DNA of 64,000 nt, from NCBI RefSeq assembly GCF_002305875.1, contig NZ_CP022098.1, positions 3,968,001-4,032,000 of the forward strand, read 5' to 3'. This stretch comes from Cystobacter fuscus. Lineage in GTDB: Bacteria > Myxococcota > Myxococcia > Myxococcales > Myxococcaceae. The notes beneath the pieces are model-generated. The model was not told the origin of the DNA and ran no database searches. It saw nothing but the letters and a program-made list of their open reading frames with translations. Below, in pieces: positions 18,596-30,150 of this stretch; position 1 is the first letter of the stretch, and each line of letters begins with the position of its first letter. The position numbers and the translations under genes are program-made.

Positions 18596-19558
18596 GTGAC
18601 ATCGCGCGACGACGAAGAGCCTCGCCGGGATACCCCCAGGGAGCTGCCCCGGGTATCCCCCGCCCAGGAGCGGCTCCTGGCCCGGACCCATGGCCTGGAA
18701 ACGCTGGAGTCCGCCTACGACGCGTGGAGCGAGTCGCGGCGGGAATTCCTCGCCGAGCGCGAGCACTACCAGCGGGAGTTCGAGCGGCTGGATCAACAGG
18801 GCTCGTTCCTGGTGGGCGCGGTCCGGCAGGCCTCGACGCAGCAGGGCGCCGCGGTGGAGCCGGCCGCGGTGGAAGCGGCGCCCGCGGGGTCGGCGCTCGT
18901 GGCCGGGGAGGGCCCCCTGCGCGACTTCCTCGGACAGGCGGAGCAGAAGCTGGCGCGGGCGAAGGAGGCGCTCGCGCGGGAGCAGGCCGACAGCGAGCAG
19001 CGCCACCTCTCCGCCTTCGAGGAGTGGCGCACCACGGTGAGGGAGCGGGTGCGGCGCCACCTGGCCGCGGCGCCTCCGCGCTTGCGCCTGCTGCTGCGCA
19101 AGGTGGGCGCCACGCGCGCCGTCCTCCACGTGGAGCGCGTGAGCGGGGACACCCCCGTGCTCCTGCTCTACCTCTTCACCGGGCGCATCCCCTCGCGCCA
19201 CGGCTTTCTCTTCGACGACTCCACGGACGACGTGTCGCTGCCGCCCGCGCCGCTCTACGCGGAGGAGGGGGTGGCGCCCCACGAGGTGCGTCCGGAGCCG
19301 TCCGCCCTGGAAGCACGGCTGCGCTCGCCCGGGGAGGTGCTGCCCGTCAAGGGCTTCCTGCCCGTCTTCGTGCCCCGTCCCGGCGGCGGCGAGGACTTCT
19401 TCCGCCTGCTGCAGCGCGGGCCGGTGATGGAGGTGGAGGTGGCCGAGGGCGGTGCGTTCCGCGCCATCCTCTCGCGCGAGGAGTCCGAGCGCTTCGCCGG
19501 GCATCTGTTGCGGCTCAACCTCCAGGGCCAGATCGTGCTCGAGGTGGAGGCGGGCTGA
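18596..19558 (+). CDS. Hypothetical coiled-coil protein, 320 aa
   Basis: No family recognised. It starts at GTG with an AGGTCAGGG-type ribosome site. Residues 20-60 and 100-150 are charged helical/coiled-coil stretches rich in Glu, Arg and Ala, and a Gln/Ala-rich linker lies between them. The C-terminal 150 residues look like a compact alpha/beta domain (around LRLLLRKVGATRAVLHVERV and GFLPVFVPRP). No signal peptide or membrane span. The cyclase gene starts 61 nt downstream on the same strand, so it could be its partner; that is guilt by position only. Confidence 0.55.
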   Translation: MTSRDDEEPRRDTPRELPRVSPAQERLLARTHGLETLESAYDAWSESRREFLAEREHYQREFERLDQQGSFLVGAVRQASTQQGAAVEPAAVEAAPAGSALVAGEGPLRDFLGQAEQKLARAKEALAREQADSEQRHLSAFEEWRTTVRERVRRHLAAAPPRLRLLLRKVGATRAVLHVERVSGDTPVLLLYLFTGRIPSRHGFLFDDSTDDVSLPPAPLYAEEGVAPHEVRPEPSALEARLRSPGEVLPVKGFLPVFVPRPGGGEDFFRLLQRGPVMEVEVAEGGAFRAILSREESERFAGHLLRLNLQGQIVLEVEAG

Positions 19559-19618: not shown

Positions 19619-22192
19619 GTGCGCAGCCTTCCCATCTACTCCACCGGCCTCCGCTTCCTGCAACGGCTCGGCTATTCGCTCCTGCAGGCCACGCTCTTCG
19701 GCGTCATCCTCGGGCTGCTCGTCTACTACCGCGTCCCGCGCGCGCGGCTCTCCGAGGAAGCCCCTCCGCTCGCGCTGCTCGCGCGCCCGGCGTCGTGGCT
19801 CCAGGCCGCCGAGAACGTCACCTATGACTGGCGCGCGCGCTCGCTGGGCGCGCGGGGCTCGCGCTCGGATCGCGTGGTGGTGGTGGCGCTCGACGACGAG
19901 ACGCTCGCCGAGGCGCGCCAGGACGAGCACGCGGGCATCGACTCCTACCCCTGGTCCCGGGAGATCCTCGGGGGCTTGACGAAGCGGCTGCTCGACGAGG
20001 GCGCCGAGTTGGTGTTGCTCGATCTGCCCTTCACGGAGCGCAGTCCCCGCGCCCCCCTCTTGCCGGGCGCGCCGGGCCAGGAGGAGCGGGACGATGACCG
20101 GGTGTTCCGCTCGCTCCTGGACGAGGTCCCCCGGAAGTCGGTGCTGGCCTTCTCGTGGTCCGCGGATCGGGGCGTGCCGCCGGGCAGCCGGCTGTGGCCG
20201 TACCGCGTCCGGCTCGGCACCTCACCCACCGAGGCCGAGGCACGTGGCCGGGTGCAGAAGATCCTCGCCGACCAGCGCCCGGCGTTCCTCCTGCCCGGCA
20301 AGGACGGGGTGGAGGTGTGGGCGGGCGTGGCCAGCGAGCAGGAGGGCCAGCGGGTGGCACTGGCGCAGGGTGTTCGCGAGCCCCCGCGCATCCAGGAGCG
20401 GCGCATCTCCGACGACGTGTACCGGGTGGGGCCACTCGAGCTCTTCATCTCGCTCGCCGAGGTGAAGGTGGAGGGGCTGGACGCGTCGCAGCTGGCGGAG
20501 GTGCGGCAGGTGGAGCACCCGGTGGCGCCGCTGCTCGGCGCGGCGAGCCTCTATGGCGCCATCACCCTGCCGGCGGATCCCGACGGCGTGGTGCGGGCCG
20601 TGCCGCACCTGGTGAGCTACCGCAGCCGGGACGGCAACCGGCACGTGCTGCCCTCCATGCCCCTGGTGGCGGCGATGCTCCAGGCGAACACGCGCGAGCT
20701 GCGCTACGCGGACGGGCGGCTGTACGTGGGCGAGCGCTTCTCGTTGCCCATGGACGAGTCCGGCTACAGCCTCATCCGCTGGGACGCGGCGGAGGTGGGG
20801 CGCGGCTCGCGCGGCTCGGTGGCCCGGGCCATTCCCGCGTGGAACGTGCTGCTCAACTTCTTCGCCGTGAGCGAGGGGGTGCCGCCGCGCGCCGCCCACG
20901 ACATCGACGGTCGGCTCATCGTCTTCAGCAACACCTCGCGCCGGGCCATGAACTTCCTGCACACCCCCATTGGCGAGCACACGCCCACGGGCGCGGTGCT
21001 CGCGCAGTCGCTGGTGAACCTGTTGCAGTCCGAGAGCCTCTCGCGCGCCACGCGGCGGTGGGACCTGGGGTTGACGCTCGGCATGGCGCTTCTGGGCGCC
21101 TTCGTCGCGCTCACCGTCAACCGGGGCCTGCGCTCCTCGGGGGACGCGTTCCTGTACCTGTTCGTCATGGCGGCGGTGGGGGTGGGCTATGCCGTGGGGG
21201 CCTGGTACGTCTTCGTCCACCGGCTCTTGTGGGTGGCCATGGTGGGCCCGTTGCTGGCCATGGGCCTCACCTTCCTCTTCACCATCGTCCAGGCCTCGCG
21301 CAGCGAGCAGCAGCTGCGCCACTTCATCACCGACGTGCTCGGCCGCTACGTGAGCCCCGAGGTGGCGCGGCTCGTCACGCGCGACCTGCGCCAGCTCACC
21401 CGTCCGGAGCTGCGCGAGGTGACGGTCTTCTTCTGCGACCTGGACGGCTTCTCGCGGCTGTCCGGCGAGCTGCCCCCCGAGCGGCTCGTGCAGTTCCTCA
21501 ACGAGTACCTGACGGAAGTGACGGACGTGGTGCGCGCCACGCGCGGGCAGGTGGACAAGTACATGGGGGACGCGGTGATGGCCTTCTGGGGCGCGCCCGT
21601 GCGCACCGAGCGCCACGCCCACCACGCCTGCGAGGCCGCCCTGGTGGTGCGCTCCACGCTGCTCGCGCGCCAGGAGTACTGGACGAAGACGTACGGCCAC
21701 GCGGTGCAGTGCCGCATCGGCATCGACAGCGGCGAGGTGCTGGTGGGCGGCATGGGCAGCGCGCTCGAGTCGAAGTACTCGGTGCTGGGCCGCTCGGTGA
21801 AGTTCTCCATGTACCTGGAGGGGCTCAACCGCGGCTACGGCACCTTCGTGCTCGTGGGCGACGGCGTGGCGCGCCTGGCCCAGGACGGCTACGTCTTCCG
21901 CGAGGTGGATCGGGTCCGCCCCAAGGGGCGCACCGAGTCCACGCGTCTGCACGAGCTGGTGGGCCGCAAGGGCGAGGTGCAGGCCGCGGCCCAGGCCCAC
22001 CTGTCGCTGCACGAGCAGGCGCTCACCGCGTACCACGAGCGGCGCTTCGACGAGGCGCTGGCGCTGTTCACCCGGAGCGTGGAGGAGTTCCAGGATCCGG
22101 TGGCGCGTGTCTACATCGAGCGCTGCCGCGTCTTCGCCCAGAAGCGCCCGGCGGAGGACTGGGACGGCGTGTTCGTGCTCGAAGGGCCGTGA
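19619..22192 (+). CDS. CHASE2-domain class III nucleotide cyclase homologue with substituted catalytic residues
   Basis: 857 residues from GTG. One membrane span (about 20-38), a periplasmic CHASE2-type sensor (about 60-430), three spans (about 475-565), a class III cyclase domain (about 595-770) and a short helical TPR-like tail. Both metal-binding Asp positions are readable (FFCDLDGFS and DKYMGDAV). However, the usual G-D/T-x-V-N-x-x-x-R block reads GRSVKFSMY: the substrate-specifying Asp is Arg725, the transition-state Asn is Lys728 and the Arg is Tyr732. The frame is intact before and after, so this is substitution, not a frameshift. It may be catalytically weak, a pseudo-cyclase, or act on another substrate. 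Confidence 0.85.
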   Translation: MRSLPIYSTGLRFLQRLGYSLLQATLFGVILGLLVYYRVPRARLSEEAPPLALLARPASWLQAAENVTYDWRARSLGARGSRSDRVVVVALDDETLAEARQDEHAGIDSYPWSREILGGLTKRLLDEGAELVLLDLPFTERSPRAPLLPGAPGQEERDDDRVFRSLLDEVPRKSVLAFSWSADRGVPPGSRLWPYRVRLGTSPTEAEARGRVQKILADQRPAFLLPGKDGVEVWAGVASEQEGQRVALAQGVREPPRIQERRISDDVYRVGPLELFISLAEVKVEGLDASQLAEVRQVEHPVAPLLGAASLYGAITLPADPDGVVRAVPHLVSYRSRDGNRHVLPSMPLVAAMLQANTRELRYADGRLYVGERFSLPMDESGYSLIRWDAAEVGRGSRGSVARAIPAWNVLLNFFAVSEGVPPRAAHDIDGRLIVFSNTSRRAMNFLHTPIGEHTPTGAVLAQSLVNLLQSESLSRATRRWDLGLTLGMALLGAFVALTVNRGLRSSGDAFLYLFVMAAVGVGYAVGAWYVFVHRLLWVAMVGPLLAMGLTFLFTIVQASRSEQQLRHFITDVLGRYVSPEVARLVTRDLRQLTRPELREVTVFFCDLDGFSRLSGELPPERLVQFLNEYLTEVTDVVRATRGQVDKYMGDAVMAFWGAPVRTERHAHHACEAALVVRSTLLARQEYWTKTYGHAVQCRIGIDSGEVLVGGMGSALESKYSVLGRSVKFSMYLEGLNRGYGTFVLVGDGVARLAQDGYVFREVDRVRPKGRTESTRLHELVGRKGEVQAAAQAHLSLHEQALTAYHERRFDEALALFTRSVEEFQDPVARVYIERCRVFAQKRPAEDWDGVFVLEGP

Positions 22193-22712: not shown

Positions 22713-23474
22713 CTACTTGAGGAACTTCGTCACCGGCACGGGGCCGTCGTTGGAGACGACGGTGCGGCCGTTGGCGACGGGAGCCGGCTCCGCGTGGCCC
22801 GAGGTCAGCGCCTGCGCATGGGCCGGGTGGCCGTGATCGTGGCCCTCGCCGATGCGGGTGTGGGCCTCCTTGTGCGCGTGGGCCGGCTGCTTCGAGTCCG
22901 AGCGCTTGTTCCAGGGATCCGACGGGTGGGACACCGCGGGCCCCTTGAGCAGCTTGGGGATGTCGTAGACGAAGCCCTGCCGGTTGTACTCGGGCGGGGT
23001 GTGCACGTACGTGTCCATGCGGATGGCGTCCTTGGGGCACGCCTCCACGCACAGGCCGCACACGATGCAGCGCAGCTCGTCGATGACGAACTGGGTGGGG
23101 TACTTCTCGATGACGCGCGAGCTCTGATCCGCGGAGTCCACCGGGTACTCGCCCGCCTCGATGTAGATGCACTGGGCCGGGCAGACGGTGGCGCACATGT
23201 AGCAGGCCACGCAGCGCGGCTTGCCATCGTCGCGCGGCACCAGCCGGTGCAGTCCGCGGTAGCCCGGGGGATAGGGGATCTTCTCCTCGGGGTACTGCAC
23301 CGTGGTCACCAGGCTGGTGCCGGTGCGCTCCTCGAAGGGCGTCTGGGTCTCGCGCGTCCCGAAGAGGTTGCGGAGGAAGTGCCGGGTGGTGATGGCCAGG
23401 CCGCGGAGCAGCTCCGGCAGATAGGTCCGCTCGCGGATGTCGGTGCGGGGATCCTGGGATGCGTTGTAAGCCAT
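22713..23474 (-). CDS. nuoI: NADH-quinone oxidoreductase subunit I
   Basis: 253-residue complex I subunit carrying clusters N6a and N6b in the peripheral arm. Two Cx2Cx2Cx3C motifs are present: [12 protein letters not shown] and [12 protein letters not shown]. The ferredoxin domain ends near residue 165; what follows is an unusual tail of about 85 residues rich in His and Ala ([19 protein letters not shown] within it), making the protein longer than the usual 160-200. It lies 18 nt after nuoH in the nuoC-D-G-H-I operon. Confidence 0.95.
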
Positions 23475-24919: not shown

Positions 24920-26800
24920 TCAGAGACCTCGAACCCTGGGAGCGCCGAACTCACGGTAGCCCGCTGGCCGACCGTCGGCACCGGACGGCAGCGGATTGAT
25001 GCCAGGCTTCTCCCGATCGGGCGGAGCCGCCTTGTCCCAGTCGAACGAGGCGAACTCGGGCACGGCCTTGCCCAGCTCGCGGAAGGCCTCGCGCGTGGTC
25101 GTCCAGGAGGTGCTGCCCCCCAGCTCCCGCGTGAGCTCCGCCACGAGCTGCGCGTGCGGCACGGCCTCGCCCTTGGAGGGGTAGGCCTTGCGGAAGCGCT
25201 GCACGAGCCCGTCCACCTGCACGAACGAGCCGTCGTACTCCACGTGCGCGGAGGCCGGCAGCAGCACGGTGGCCTGCGCGGTGAGGGGCGACTCGTTCGT
25301 CGCCTGCACCACGAAGGTGTCCAGCTTCGCCGCCGTCTGGGCGAAGGTGGCCTCGCTTCCGGGCACCTCGCTGCCCACGGCGTAGAGCGCCTTCACCTTG
25401 CCGCCGTCGATGCCCTGCACGAGCGCCTCGAACGGCTGGAGCTTGAGCTCCAGGCCCTGGGCGATGAGCTCCAGGCCCTTGCGGTTGGGGTTGCGGTCGG
25501 CCGTGAGCAGGTAGTGGTCGGCCTCGCCCTGCGGGCGGCCACCCACGTACACCTCACGCACGCCCAGCGTCGTCTTGGCGAAGGTGAGCGCGGCGAGCAG
25601 ATCCTCGTTGGAGGCCACGGGCGAGGCGAGCACGGCCACCTTGCCCTTGGCGTCCGCGAGCGCGCGGCCCGCGGCCTGGATGGCCTCCTTGCGCGCCACC
25701 TCGGGACGGGCGGTGCCGCCCTGCTGGCGGCCCACCACGGCGTTGAGCACGCGGCCCAGGTTGAGGCCCTTGTACGTGAGCCGGCCGTGGTCGCACATCC
25801 AGCTCTTGTTGACGGCCTCGTTCTCGCGCGGGCGGTAGCGGTACGTCTCCTGGCCCATGAAGTCCGCGTAGGTGTTGCAGCCGCGCGAGCACCCGGTGCA
25901 CACCGAGGGCGCGGCGGACTGGAACCACGTGCGGGCGCGGAAGCGGTAGTCGCGGCCGAGCAGCGCGCCCACCGGGCAGATGTCCACGGTGTTGAGCGAG
26001 TAGTTGCTGCTCAGCTCGCTGCCGGGGAACGTGTCGACGACCTCGTGGCTGCCGCGGCCGAAGATGCCCAGCTGCGGCTCCTTGGCCACCTCGTTCATGA
26101 AGCGCACGCAGCGGCTGCACAGGATGCAGCGCTCCTGGTCCATCACCACGCGGGGCCCGAGCACCTTGCGCTTGTTCTTCAGGACCTTCGCCCCCTCCAG
26201 ACGCGAGGGGCGGTAGTCGTAGCGCATGTAGTAGTCCTGCAGCTTGCACTCACCGGCCTGGTCACAGATGGAGCAGTCCACCGGGTGGTTGAGCAGCAGG
26301 AACTCCATCACCGCGCGCTGCTGCTCCTTGACCTTGGGGGTGTTGGTCTTGATGACCTGCCCCTCGGCGAGCGGCGTCTGGCACGCGGGCACCATCTTGG
26401 GGGCGTTGGACGCCTCCACGAAGCACATGCGGCAGTTGGCCGCGATGGACAGGCGCGGGTGGTAGCAGAAGTAGGGGATGATCGAGCCGACCTTGCGCGC
26501 CGCCTCGATCATGTTCGTGCCCGGCTTGGCGATGACTTCCTTGCCGTCGATGGTGCACGTGACGAAGCCCGGGTTCTTCGGCGGAGGCGGGCCGGGCGGC
26601 TTGGGCGCCGGAGGCGGCGCCGCGGCGGCCGGAGGCGGAGGGGTGGGGGCGCTGTGCGCGGCGGGCGGCGTGTCCAGCTTGGGGCCCGCGGGCGGATTGG
26701 AGGGCTCGGAGCCGATCTTCGCCGCGGGCGTGTCCGTGGGCGCGCCCTTGACGGGCGGCTGCGCGTCGCCGGTGGGCTTCTTGGTGTCGTTGTCGCTCAC
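24920..26800 (-). CDS. nuoG: NADH-quinone oxidoreductase subunit G
   Basis: 626 residues from a GTG that overlaps the nuoD TGA (GTGA). Residues 1-75 are a Pro/Ala-rich, probably disordered, extension not usual in NuoG. Then come the 2Fe-2S domain (CRMC and the surrounding Cys of NuoG N1b), the His-Cys cluster N3 (HPVDCSICDQAGECKLQ) and the 4Fe-4S ligands (CILCSRC ... CPVG), followed by a molybdopterin-oxidoreductase-like domain with the extra cluster (CTGCSRGC), which ends early compared with the 900-residue E. coli subunit. Directly upstream of nuoH. Confidence 0.95.
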   Translation of the reverse strand: MSDNDTKKPTGDAQPPVKGAPTDTPAAKIGSEPSNPPAGPKLDTPPAAHSAPTPPPPAAAAPPPAPKPPGPPPPKNPGFVTCTIDGKEVIAKPGTNMIEAARKVGSIIPYFCYHPRLSIAANCRMCFVEASNAPKMVPACQTPLAEGQVIKTNTPKVKEQQRAVMEFLLLNHPVDCSICDQAGECKLQDYYMRYDYRPSRLEGAKVLKNKRKVLGPRVVMDQERCILCSRCVRFMNEVAKEPQLGIFGRGSHEVVDTFPGSELSSNYSLNTVDICPVGALLGRDYRFRARTWFQSAAPSVCTGCSRGCNTYADFMGQETYRYRPRENEAVNKSWMCDHGRLTYKGLNLGRVLNAVVGRQQGGTARPEVARKEAIQAAGRALADAKGKVAVLASPVASNEDLLAALTFAKTTLGVREVYVGGRPQGEADHYLLTADRNPNRKGLELIAQGLELKLQPFEALVQGIDGGKVKALYAVGSEVPGSEATFAQTAAKLDTFVVQATNESPLTAQATVLLPASAHVEYDGSFVQVDGLVQRFRKAYPSKGEAVPHAQLVAELTRELGGSTSWTTTREAFRELGKAVPEFASFDWDKAAPPDREKPGINPLPSGADGRPAGYREFGAPRVRGL

Positions 26801-28062
26801 TGCTCGACCTCGCCGCCGATCATGTTGATCGTGTCAAACGTGGGAATCAGGTCCGCGAGCATGTTGCCCGTCACGATGGACGACACGGCGGACAGGATGG
26901 GGAAGCCCGGCGCGCGCACGTGGACCTTGTAGGGCCGGCCGCCGCCGTCGCTCACGATGTACCAGCCGAGCTCGCCGTTGGCGGACTCGGTGGCGTCGAA
27001 GACCTCGCCGGCGGGCACCTGGATGCCCTCCATCACCAGCTTGAAGTGGGAGATGACGCCCTCGATGGTGCCGTACACCTCGGGCTTGGGCGGCAGCGCG
27101 ATGCGCCAGTCGTCCACGATGATGGGCCCGGAGGGGATCTTCGCCAGCGCCTGGCGCAGGATGCGCTCCGACTGCTTCATCTCCTCGATGCGCATGAGGT
27201 AGCGGTCGTAGTTGTCGCCGTGCTCACCCACCGGCACGTCGAAGTCGAGCTGGTTGTAGACCCAGTACGGCCGCGTCTTGCGCAGGTCGTAGTCGATGCC
27301 GCAGGCGCGCAGGCACGGGCCCGTCCAGCCGTAGTCGATGGCGTCCTCGGCGCTGATGATGCCGGTGCCCTTCATGCGGTCCACGAAGATGCGGTTGCGC
27401 GACAGGAGCGATTCCACCTCGATGTTCAGCTCGCGGATCTTGTCCAGCGACTTGAGGGTCCGCTCGATCCACCCCTCGGGCAGATCGCGGTTGAGCCCGC
27501 CCACGCGGCCGAAGCTGGTGGTCAGCCGCGCGCCCGTCAGCTCGGCCACCCGATCCATGATGAGCTCGCGCGCCTCCATGGCGAAGAGGAAGGGCGCGAA
27601 GCCTCCGAGCTCCATGCCCGTCGCCGCCACGCACGTGAGGTGGTCATGGATGCGGTGCAGCTCCGAGCCGATGACGCGGATGTACTGGGCGCGCTCGGGG
27701 ATCTCCAGGCCGATGAGCTTCTCCACGGCGTTGAGGAAGCCGAAGTTGTTCATCAGCGGGGACGCGTAGTTGAGCCGGTCCGTATAGGGCAGGCACTGCG
27801 TCCAGGTGACGTTCTCGCAGCTCTTCTGGAAGCCGCGGTGCAGGAAGCCGATCTCGCAGTCGGCGTTCTTGATGATCTCTCCCTCCAGGTGCACCTTCAT
27901 GCGCACCGTGCCGTGCATGGCGGGGTGGGAGGGGCCCATGTTGATGAACATGGGCTTGGACTGCAGGTGCGCCTCCAGCTCCGACTCCTGGGCATAGGCG
28001 TCGGTGTCCGGGTTGGGCACGTCGGGGTGGGGATGGGCTGCGGGCTTGTGGGGGTCCGCCAT
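26797..28062 (-). CDS. nuoD: NADH-quinone oxidoreductase subunit D
   Basis: 421 residues from the ATG at 28062, which I choose because the complex I domain starts about 35 residues later and an upstream open stretch is Arg/Pro-rich shadow. Quinone-pocket signature MGPSHPAMHG, IGFLHRGFQKSCE and the YTDRLNY segment are present. The His/Pro-rich first 30 residues are an extra tail. Peripheral-arm subunit next to the membrane. Start of nuoG overlaps its stop by 4 nt; nuoC lies 38 nt upstream. Confidence 0.96.
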   Translation of the reverse strand: MADPHKPAAHPHPDVPNPDTDAYAQESELEAHLQSKPMFINMGPSHPAMHGTVRMKVHLEGEIIKNADCEIGFLHRGFQKSCENVTWTQCLPYTDRLNYASPLMNNFGFLNAVEKLIGLEIPERAQYIRVIGSELHRIHDHLTCVAATGMELGGFAPFLFAMEARELIMDRVAELTGARLTTSFGRVGGLNRDLPEGWIERTLKSLDKIRELNIEVESLLSRNRIFVDRMKGTGIISAEDAIDYGWTGPCLRACGIDYDLRKTRPYWVYNQLDFDVPVGEHGDNYDRYLMRIEEMKQSERILRQALAKIPSGPIIVDDWRIALPPKPEVYGTIEGVISHFKLVMEGIQVPAGEVFDATESANGELGWYIVSDGGGRPYKVHVRAPGFPILSAVSSIVTGNMLADLIPTFDTINMIGGEVEQ

Positions 28063-28100
28063 GATGTCCTCGAGGGCGTGGCCGGTGGAAGAGCGGGCGA

Positions 28101-28628
28101 TCAGGAGACGCCGCTGGTACCGGGGCCGCGGAAGATGTCCTTGATGGGCCGCTCGGGAATGAGCGGCTGCCGGTCGCGCAGGGCGTAGTCCTTGCGCAGG
28201 GGATGGCCCTGGAACTCCTCGTAGAGCAACACGCGGCGCAAGTCCGGGTGTCCGGCGAAGCGCACGCCGTAGAAGTCCCACACGAAGCGCTCCCACCAGT
28301 TGGCGCCCTTGAACACGGACACCAGCGAGGGAATCTCCAACTGCGATTCGCTCACCCGCACCTTGAGGCGCACGTGCTCGCGGCGCGACAGGGAGCTGAT
28401 GAAGTAGACGACCTCGAAGCGCGGATCGTTCTCCGCCAGGTGGAGCCGGTCCACCGCGTCGATCGACACGAAGAGCTTGAAGTCCAGCTCGTGCTTGAGG
28501 AAGGCGGCCACCTTGGGAAGGTGCTCCGCGTGGATGACGGCCCAGGCGCCGCCCGTGCGGTCCAAATAGCGCTCCGCCACCGCCTCCGGAAACTGGGCAG
28601 TGACCCTGTCGAGTGCGAAGGTGCTCAA
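28101..28628 (-). CDS. nuoC: NADH-quinone oxidoreductase subunit C
   Basis: 175-residue peripheral subunit, separate from NuoD (not the fused NuoCD of E. coli). The 30-kDa signature is clear: WERFVWDFYGVRFAGHPDLR and the following LLYEEFQGHPLRKDY. It starts at TTG with GAGG four nt upstream. It opens the nuoC-D-G-H-I operon; the gene before it on this strand is a cyclase, so nuoC is parted from nuoA-nuoB by about 2 kb. Confidence 0.95.
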   Translation of the reverse strand: MSTFALDRVTAQFPEAVAERYLDRTGGAWAVIHAEHLPKVAAFLKHELDFKLFVSIDAVDRLHLAENDPRFEVVYFISSLSRREHVRLKVRVSESQLEIPSLVSVFKGANWWERFVWDFYGVRFAGHPDLRRVLLYEEFQGHPLRKDYALRDRQPLIPERPIKDIFRGPGTSGVS

Positions 28629-28699: not shown

Positions 28700-30037
28700 T
28701 TAGCCATCCTCGCCACTTACGCGAGACAGAAGCCGGCGCTCTCCGGATCGGGGCTTGCGGGCCGCCACCCCGGCGTTTTCCCGGGGGTCCAGGGGAATGA
28801 ACGTGGACACCGGCTCGCGCTTGCCCGCCACGGCCGTGGGGGGAAGCTCCTTCCACAGGAAGCCGTCGCCCGCCTGCTCGCGCGTCTCCCGGGACACCAG
28901 CACCGGCGTGCCGTGCCGCTTGGTGAGCTGCTCGATCCGACTGGCCAGATTCACCGTGTCGCCAATGGCGGTGTACTCGAGACGTCGGGCCATGGAGCCG
29001 ATGTTGCCCAACACCACCCGGCCGGTGTGCAGGCCCACCCCCATGCGCAGCACCGGCTCTCCCCGCGCCGCCCGCCGGGCGTTGACCACCTCCAGCTCCC
29101 GCACCATCTCCAGGGCACACGCCACCGCGCGCCGGGGATGCTCGGGCTCGGGCAGGGGGGCACCGAAGTACACCATGAGTGCGTCCCCGATGAACTTGTC
29201 GAGCGTGCCCCCATGGCGGAACACCACCTCCACCATGTGTCCGTAGTACTCGTTGAGCAGGGTGACCACGGCCTCGGGCGACAGCCGCTCGCTCAGCGCG
29301 GTGAAGTCGCGCAGGTCCGCGAACAGCAGCGTCACCTCGCGCAGCTCGGGCCGGGACGCGGGGGAGGCCAGGTCCTGCAAGCGCTCGGCGACGGCGGGGG
29401 CGAAGTAGCGGCCGAGCTGGGCGCGCTTGAGTTCCTCGCGCGTCAGCGCGGAGACGAGCACGTGGATGCGGTGGAAGAGGTAGCGCGAGGCCCCCGCCGT
29501 GAGCGCCAGCACCAGCACCGCCACCACCTGGGCGCCCGTGCCCACGCTGGCCTCGGTCTGCAGCCGCACCTCGGCCAGGGCCGCCACGGCCGTCACCGAG
29601 AGGAGCACCGCGAGGCGCATGGACAGGGCGGACAGGACGATGACGAACGCGTAGAGGCCGAGCGTGAAGCCCGCCACGCCCGCCGGGAAGGGGGAGACGG
29701 GCAGGGCGAGGTGCTGCAACCAGTAGATGGCGGGCACATCCACCACCGCCAGGGAGAGCCCGGCCCAGCTCGCCACCCGGGGCCAGCGCACCACCGCCGC
29801 GAGTGACGCGACGGTACACAGCCAGTAGGCGAGGAAGGGCGCGAGGTACACCCGCCAGTCCGCCAGCCCCCGCCCCACGCCCAGGTACACCGTGACGAGC
29901 AGCACGAGCGACACCCCGAGGCAGCGCAACTGCGCCAGTCGTACCGTGTTGTGCTGGCGTTCGGCCTCGAGCGCCCTGCCCACCGGCTCCATCAGGGAGT
30001 CGGCGAGCGGGGCGTGGGTCTGCCCGGATTCGTCCAC
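28700..30037 (-). CDS. Membrane-anchored class III adenylate/guanylate cyclase, canonical active site
   Basis: About 445 residues from GTG 30037 (GAGG just upstream; GTG 30079 and ATG 29992 are alternatives). About six spans form an N-terminal MASE-like region (about 35-190), then a class III cyclase domain (about 230-420). FADLRDFT and [13 protein letters not shown] give both metal Asp residues; [15 protein letters not shown] gives the Asp, Asn and Arg of catalysis. All expected residues are present, so it should make a cyclic nucleotide, cAMP more likely than cGMP. It interrupts the nuo genes, between nuoB and nuoC, on the same strand. A small basic C-terminal tail follows. Confidence 0.88.
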
Positions 30038-30150
30038 GAGACCTCGGAAGTAGGGAGGATGGCGCGGGCATCCTCTCACGGACGTCGGGCAGCGCGCATC
30101 TTTCAGGCGGACGCCCGCCCGCCCTGCGGCATGACTCTTAACGGAAGCGT

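Follow-up and report, generated by a model that had tools for sequence, protein, structure and literature searches.

Domain searches score proteins of the P0001 type as adenylate/guanylate cyclases. Is such a protein still an enzyme when residues at the heart of its active site have been replaced? If it is not, what could its cyclase-like domain be doing at the end of a membrane receptor? These questions are raised by P0001, a receptor of Cystobacter fuscus encoded in the window, as we call the whole stretch of 64,000 nucleotides analysed here.

P0001 has the architecture of a CHASE2 receptor: one transmembrane helix precedes the CHASE2 domain and three follow from the end of that domain onward, as indicated by both hydropathy and the predicted model. 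Its parts are arranged along the gene as follows.

19619..22192, + strand: P0001, CHASE2 receptor with a degenerate class III cyclase domain, 857 amino acids (translation, GTG start; Pfam; orthologue match in 95/96 family genomes)
19667..19723, + strand: first transmembrane helix, residues 17-35 (hydropathy; AlphaFold model helix 9-36)
19775..21094, + strand: CHASE2 extracytoplasmic sensor domain, residues 53-492 (PF05226, E 9.1e-29, 101.2 bits)
21062..21265, + strand: three transmembrane helices after CHASE2, residues 482-549 (hydropathy; model helices 479-499, 507-535, 542-575)
21266..21406, + strand: helical linker or transducer to the cyclase domain, residues 550-596 (model helices 542-575, 580-594)
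21407..21967, + strand: class III cyclase homology domain, residues 597-783 (PF00211; Foldseek)
21968..22189, + strand: C-terminal helical tail, residues 784-857 (model helices 789-806, 810-824, 827-841)

Membership of the class III nucleotidyl cyclase fold family is supported by both the Guanylate_cyc domain and the fold. In Pfam, Guanylate_cyc (PF00211) matches residues 597-773 with an E value of 2.4e-16 and 60.3 bits against a cut-off of 21.9, and a search of NCBIfam gave one weak TOMM_kin_cyc match only, far below the cut-off of that family. The AlphaFold model has a mean pLDDT of 82.8 and a pTM of 0.62, being weak at residues 712-719 and at 577-595, the latter a low-confidence part of the linker, in which an alignment reveals a conserved block of the LGRYVSPEVARLV type. 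The modelled cyclase domain resembles CyaB (3r5g, TMt 0.86) and CyaC (1wc1, TMt 0.83) in Foldseek (TMt range 0.79-0.86), and Pseudomonas aeruginosa CyaB (3r5g) is also the best PDB sequence match to P0001 (E 7.8e-22).

In a class III site, a pair of Asp residues binds the metals, a Lys and an Asp serve the purine, and an Asn and an Arg hold the ribose in position and stabilise the transition state. Alignment places the corresponding residues of P0001 as follows.

21437..21439, + strand: metal Asp 1, D607, kept (alignment)
21557..21559, + strand: substrate (purine) Lys, K647, kept (alignment)
21569..21571, + strand: metal Asp 2, D651, kept (alignment)
21791..21793, + strand: R725 replacing the purine Asp, codon CGC (alignment; Arg also in active P. 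aeruginosa CyaB)
21800..21802, + strand: K728 replacing the transition-state Asn, codon AAG (alignment; K in 11/11 clade members)
21812..21814, + strand: Y732 replacing the transition-state Arg, codon TAC (alignment; F in seven and Y in four of the 11 clade members)

Thus both metal-binding Asp residues are present and the transition-state N...R pair is not. The preliminary description of this locus had numbered Arg725, Lys728 and Tyr732 of the GRSVKFSMY block exactly and had rightly stated that metal Asp residues are kept. It had also called all three replaced positions key, and here a distinction is needed: the replacements are real, but neither R725 nor the loss of Asn by itself is decisive. 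The purine pair of P0001 consists of the kept K647 and R725, and CyaB of P. aeruginosa, which controls cAMP synthesis according to the available part of its description (PMC3535393), likewise has Arg at the position of 725 (GREVNLASR). It differs from P0001 in keeping N and R, where P0001 has K728 and Y732, and it is active. Position 725 also varies among R, Q, E and G within the clade of P0001. Arg can evidently stand there in an active enzyme, and the idea of three disabling replacements is rejected as regards R725. Other class III cyclases resemble P0001 in lacking the Asn and differ from it in being active: Ma1120 of Mycobacterium avium, which has Ala there and retains Arg, loses activity drastically when Asn is put in, as the accessible part of the report states (PMC4215837), and Rv1900c with His is described, in the portion available, as an active enzyme (PMC4886424). 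A dead site can therefore be argued only from the loss of Asn and Arg together, because known enzymes tolerate R at 725 or the loss of Asn alone. Judged from the residues, the loss of Arg (Y732) is the serious change and the main argument for a predicted silent site in P0001, although not a conclusive one.

Could the replacements be an accident of one genome? The receptors of G074 and G073, which are 97% and 96% identical to P0001, carry the identical R/K/Y, which makes a sequencing error unlikely. In a tree of 89 rows, from which the fragments L099 and L108 and four loci of G000 were omitted, 80 family sequences form one clade (SH-aLRT 100) and P0001 belongs to an 11-row clade within it (SH-aLRT 100), all 11 members of which have Lys plus Tyr or Phe in place of N...R. 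The alignment with other myxobacteria that the preliminary description had proposed thus shows Lys plus an aromatic residue to be conserved throughout this clade, and a lone mutation or sequencing error is rejected. Among the named records, three Archangium sequences fall in the Lys-plus-Phe group and the receptors of Myxococcus, Corallococcus, Pyxidicoccus, Citreicoccus and Hyalangium in other groups. Fixation does not mark K728 as a specially constrained site: of 39 cyclase sites at which the remainder of the core clade shows four or more different residues, 14 are likewise invariant in the window clade.

The receptor itself is nearly universal in the family, with orthologue matches (E<=1e-60) in 95 of the 96 genomes of family f1 and in 100 of the 145 of the order. 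A second receptor match, found in five of these 100 genomes, represents a separate gene in G084, G105 and G139 and a split gene in G058 and G089. We could read 81 orthologous cyclase domains from the 95 matched genomes, twelve genomes and G050 (an N-terminal match only) being left out and the G089 piece lacking the domain. Writing the site in the order metal 1, Lys, metal 2, Asp, Asn, Arg, the commonest signatures are DKDDGR (28), DKDEAR (18), DKDEKF (5) and AKDRNR (4), followed by DKDRKY and DKDDGW (3 each), by DKDDNR, DKDENR, DKDGKF and DKDDSR (2 each), and by twelve others found once each; a named record, L139, reads DKDEGR, and the orthologue of Myxococcus xanthus reads DKDDGR. Asn is kept in only 10 of the 81 domains, Asp in 36 and Arg in 62, as against 76 and 78 for metal Asp 1 and 2 and 78 for Lys. 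The four AKDRNR receptors are those of four genus g7 genomes, which have lost metal Asp 1 and kept N...R. In the Corallococcus orthologues L120, L121 and L132 (named records), which read DTDDGR, the substrate Lys has gone too. Three members of the same family with genomes of 2.1-2.7 Mb (G125-G127) keep the receptor as DKEEAK, DKEESK and NKEEAK (L093, L095 and L096); each has three cyclase domains, the other two being canonical.

Controls from the same family show how unusual this is. The canonical signature DKDDNR is found in 2/81 receptor domains, as opposed to 50/50 orthologues of P0003, a second cyclase of the window, and 48/50 orthologues of a canonical CHASE2 paralogue, so that 79/81 domains of one orthologous receptor are non-canonical versus 0/50 and 2/50 in the two cyclase groups; these are counts of genomes within one bacterial family and not of independent events. 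For the first control, 50 loci were read of 60 genomes matched; for the second, 50 loci (the 30 best and 20 chosen deeper ones) with 88 genomes matched. The non-canonical state of the receptor orthologues exceeds chance. Degenerate cyclase domains are not rare in the source genome, because of the 18 Guanylate_cyc matches in C. fuscus nine read DKDDNR and several others are degenerate (L007 was not aligned by the catalytic-site profile). The exceptional feature is that a nearly universal receptor should be non-canonical in almost all of its orthologues. Outside the window, the same genome encodes a third CHASE2 protein (L015/L258, G000:C1:12175492-12177228, - strand) whose cyclase domain, with all six catalytic positions replaced (WSESDQ), is more degenerate than that of P0001, and a 1413-amino-acid frame (L017, G000:C1:6035263) with two cyclase-like domains reading DHD--- and RQDRNR, which from these signatures may be a tandem pair with each half keeping part of the site.

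How did the sites come to differ? When the six catalytic columns are left out of the tree building, parsimony over the 89 rows counts seven changes at Asn, five at Arg, six at Asp, two at metal 1, one at metal 2 and one at Lys, as steps between kept and lost with loss and gain not told apart. The canonical members L030 and L031 sit inside the clade, which makes several independent losses the simplest reading. All rows outside the family clade are canonical except L100, from another bacterial family, which reads DKDEGR, and given this row an early departure from the canonical site is possible too. Of the 19 tree rows lacking Arg, 16 retain both metal Asp residues; in the remaining three, site 2 is Glu, and in one of these site 1 is Asn as well. 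The preliminary description had suggested a pseudo-cyclase sensor or an enzyme for a different substrate. The replacement of N...R, its fixation in 11/11 members of the clade and the loss of Arg or a metal Asp elsewhere speak for the former, and no support was found for the latter. The silent-site conclusion covers the window clade and the other Arg-less lines, not the whole family: since Ma1120 (Ala) and Rv1900c (His) work without Asn, many of the Arg-keeping orthologues (62/81) may, by analogy, be active.

If P0001 is silent, which protein might it act on? The neighbourhood offers two candidates, listed here with a synteny anchor.

18596..19558, + strand: P0002, conserved upstream neighbour, 320 amino acids, possible partner (AlphaFold model; genome matches)
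22713..23474, - strand: nuoI, convergent downstream synteny anchor (tblastn synteny)
28700..30079, - strand: P0003, canonical multi-transmembrane cyclase, in-window control and candidate heterodimer partner (GDTVNLASR = DKDDNR)

In 60 of the 82 family loci fetched, P0002 lies upstream of the receptor gene and in the same orientation. Many of the loci also have, downstream and in the opposite orientation (tblastn), the gene that we take from its sequence to be nuoI; 26797-28296, which neighbours it, is Complex1_49kDa by family search. P0003 had been named beforehand as a canonical control, and its GDTVNLASR agrees. It has matches in 60 of the 96 family genomes (E<=1e-100), and in 54 of these 60 its orthologue starts 7.8-13.1 kb from the receptor (start coordinates), which makes it a reasonable candidate partner. 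No fixed partner emerges: 36/96 genomes gave no P0003 match, including G047, whose receptor nevertheless has a K...F site. Nor is a CHASE2:CHASE2 heterodimer with the canonical paralogue (G000:C1:7119561) a general rule, as G044, again with a K...F site, has a single CHASE2 protein at E<=0.001, the receptor itself. Other canonical cyclases were present in the ten genomes surveyed. In two genomes with a canonical receptor site, the neighbouring canonical cyclase is absent or far off, there being no match in G042 and one 49 kb away in G083; these are two genomes only, and no link is drawn from them.

An outline of how P0001 could work is as follows. The CHASE2 domain would sense some extracytoplasmic signal and pass it by way of the final transmembrane helices and the linker to a cyclase-like domain that probably still folds as class III and retains the metal Asp residues and the Lys at the nucleotide site. 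A P0001 homodimer would make little or no cyclic nucleotide, because the ribose-orienting and transition-state Asn and Arg are Lys and Tyr, and the output would be carried by the state of the dimer and by nucleotide binding. Most concretely, P0001 would pair with a canonical membrane cyclase, donating its metal Asp pair to the one site that works, and the degenerate half of P0001 would then make up a regulatory site; alternatively, it would dampen the canonical cyclase. That P0001 is a regulatory pseudo-cyclase, acting most concretely by dimerisation with or against a canonical cyclase, is the account towards which we lean, with confidence a little above even. It starts from the observed residues, their fixation in the clade, the near-universal presence of the receptor in the family and the retention of both the predicted fold and the metal pair; what we infer from there is that P0001 is inactive, dimerises, binds nucleotide and pairs in trans. 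A bolder extension, which we hold to be distinctly unlikely, would make these proteins bacterial obligate heterodimer-forming CHASE2 receptors of which different lineages keep different halves of the site, the window clade the metal half (DKD[RQEG]K[YF]) and four genomes of g7 the N...R half (AKDRNR), so that the two kinds would complement a canonical cyclase from opposite sides, in either case with a second, nucleotide-gated regulatory site left over.

Other explanations must be weighed against this. P0001 might be a stand-alone receptor whose domain binds nucleotide or simply alters its shape, passing the signal on to a partner that is not a cyclase, such as P0002, with no canonical cyclase involved, which we consider unlikely but by no means negligible. 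P0002 ends 60 bp before P0001 in the window, is found once each in 90 of the 96 family genomes and in none of them without the receptor, shares a contig with it in 77 of the 90 at a distance of less than 6 kb between starts (about 7 kb in one more), and accompanies the orthologue L100 even in another bacterial family. Against such a partnership, P0002 and the receptor lie on different contigs in 12/90 genomes, including all seven of genus g26, and five receptor-bearing genomes have no P0002 match. Moreover, an opposite-strand gene, lipoprotein-like by its start, stands between the two in both relatives examined, L109 (947-1825, - strand) and L117 (5031-6074, - strand), so that co-transcription is not general, and the case for P0002 as an operon partner is weakened. 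In the model of P0002 (pLDDT 85.7), an alpha/beta part comes after two long helices; no Pfam or NCBIfam family and no PDB fold match at E<=0.001 was found for this protein, and its contact with the receptor is putative. Altered chemistry would instead keep P0001 active, K728, one helical turn before the lost Arg, supplying a positive charge for the alpha-phosphate. Lys728 and an aromatic residue at 732 do occur together in 11/11 clade members and Lys728 with Arg732 in none of the 81 domains, and Ma1120 shows, in the part of the report available, that an Asn at this position, although the "right" residue, may not suit a particular enzyme (PMC4215837). Yet the 11 rows descend from a single ancestor, and the window clade is invariant at 111 of its 187 cyclase columns, so the pairing may be simple inheritance. 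The other losses of Arg are accompanied at 728 by Gly (Trp at 732, three rows), Asn (Ala, one row) or Ala/Ser (Lys, four rows) and never by Lys, and NeoR, which carries Lys where the Arg would be, shows no activity by itself (PMC12264004). We regard this chemistry as improbable.

It is also conceivable, though very improbable, that P0001 is a slowly decaying relic without function. Catalytic positions have changed several times, the receptor is broken in two genomes (a stop inside that of G090, a split between two frames in G089), and divergence is faster in its cyclase domain than in the corresponding domain of the CHASE2 control, with medians of 0.184 versus 0.086 in the window clade (faster in 26/28 genome pairs) and 0.16 versus 0.079 in genus g19 (15/15 pairs). 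This faster divergence also fits plain relaxation. However, one internal stop and one frame break are all that was seen in a receptor matched in 95/96 family genomes and retained even in those of 2.1-2.7 Mb. Compared with the canonical P0003, the receptor domain diverges faster in 28/36 pairs in the window clade (0.176 versus 0.128) but in only 1/120 pairs in genus g19 (0.144 versus 0.204). Median dN/dS is below 1 in every region and clade tested, being 0.30 for CHASE2, 0.53 for the linker, 0.36 for the cyclase domain and 0.56 for the tail in ten window-clade genomes (NG86, a rough method at 72% G+C). From these comparisons the cyclase domain looks constrained, less tightly than in the canonical CHASE2 paralogue.

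What would a regulatory pseudo-cyclase mean? Repertoires of cAMP enzymes would be over-counted, and myxobacteria would hold a natural series of one receptor (canonical, Asn-less, Arg-less and metal-less) that shows which class III residues are needed for signalling as opposed to catalysis. Among the literature matches listed, there was no paper on a P0001-type receptor or on myxobacterial pseudo-cyclases.

Among the closest known systems are CyaD1, CyaD2 and CyaK of Sinorhizobium meliloti, which like P0001 combine a CHASE2 domain with a class III cyclase. They differ in that their cAMP synthesis rises with sensing, in response to a plant protein sensed via the outer-membrane protein NsrA (PMC13001267), whereas P0001 is predicted to be silent. 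The chytrid fungal NeoR/RGC system resembles P0001 in joining a membrane sensor to a class III domain without NxxxR. As far as the accessible text of its description goes (PMC12264004), NeoR lacks this motif (T455, K459); the NeoR catalytic domain shows no activity by itself, and NeoR enters heterodimers that are active and have a single working site; the transition-state Arg is discussed there as crucial. Restoring N and R in NeoR regained no activity, and the RGC2 domain is inactive alone although its motif is present (PMC12264004, same portion), so the motif is not the whole story. The systems differ in several respects: NeoR/RGC is fungal, with a rhodopsin sensor, GTP-type base residues and a known partner, while P0001 is bacterial, with a CHASE2 sensor and candidate partners only.

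The silent-half pattern of NeoR and C1, NxxxR lost and metal Asp kept, is found in P0001. The C1 half of mammalian adenylyl cyclase, too, keeps the metal Asp pair. The absence of NxxxR from one half of the mammalian transmembrane enzyme is noted in the available part of the same source (PMC12264004), and P0001 is like it in presenting a putatively silent half, the difference being that the mammalian silent half is fused to the other half in one chain. If P0001 is indeed one half of a heterodimer, bacteria would possess an arrangement of the C1/C2 or NeoR kind of their own.
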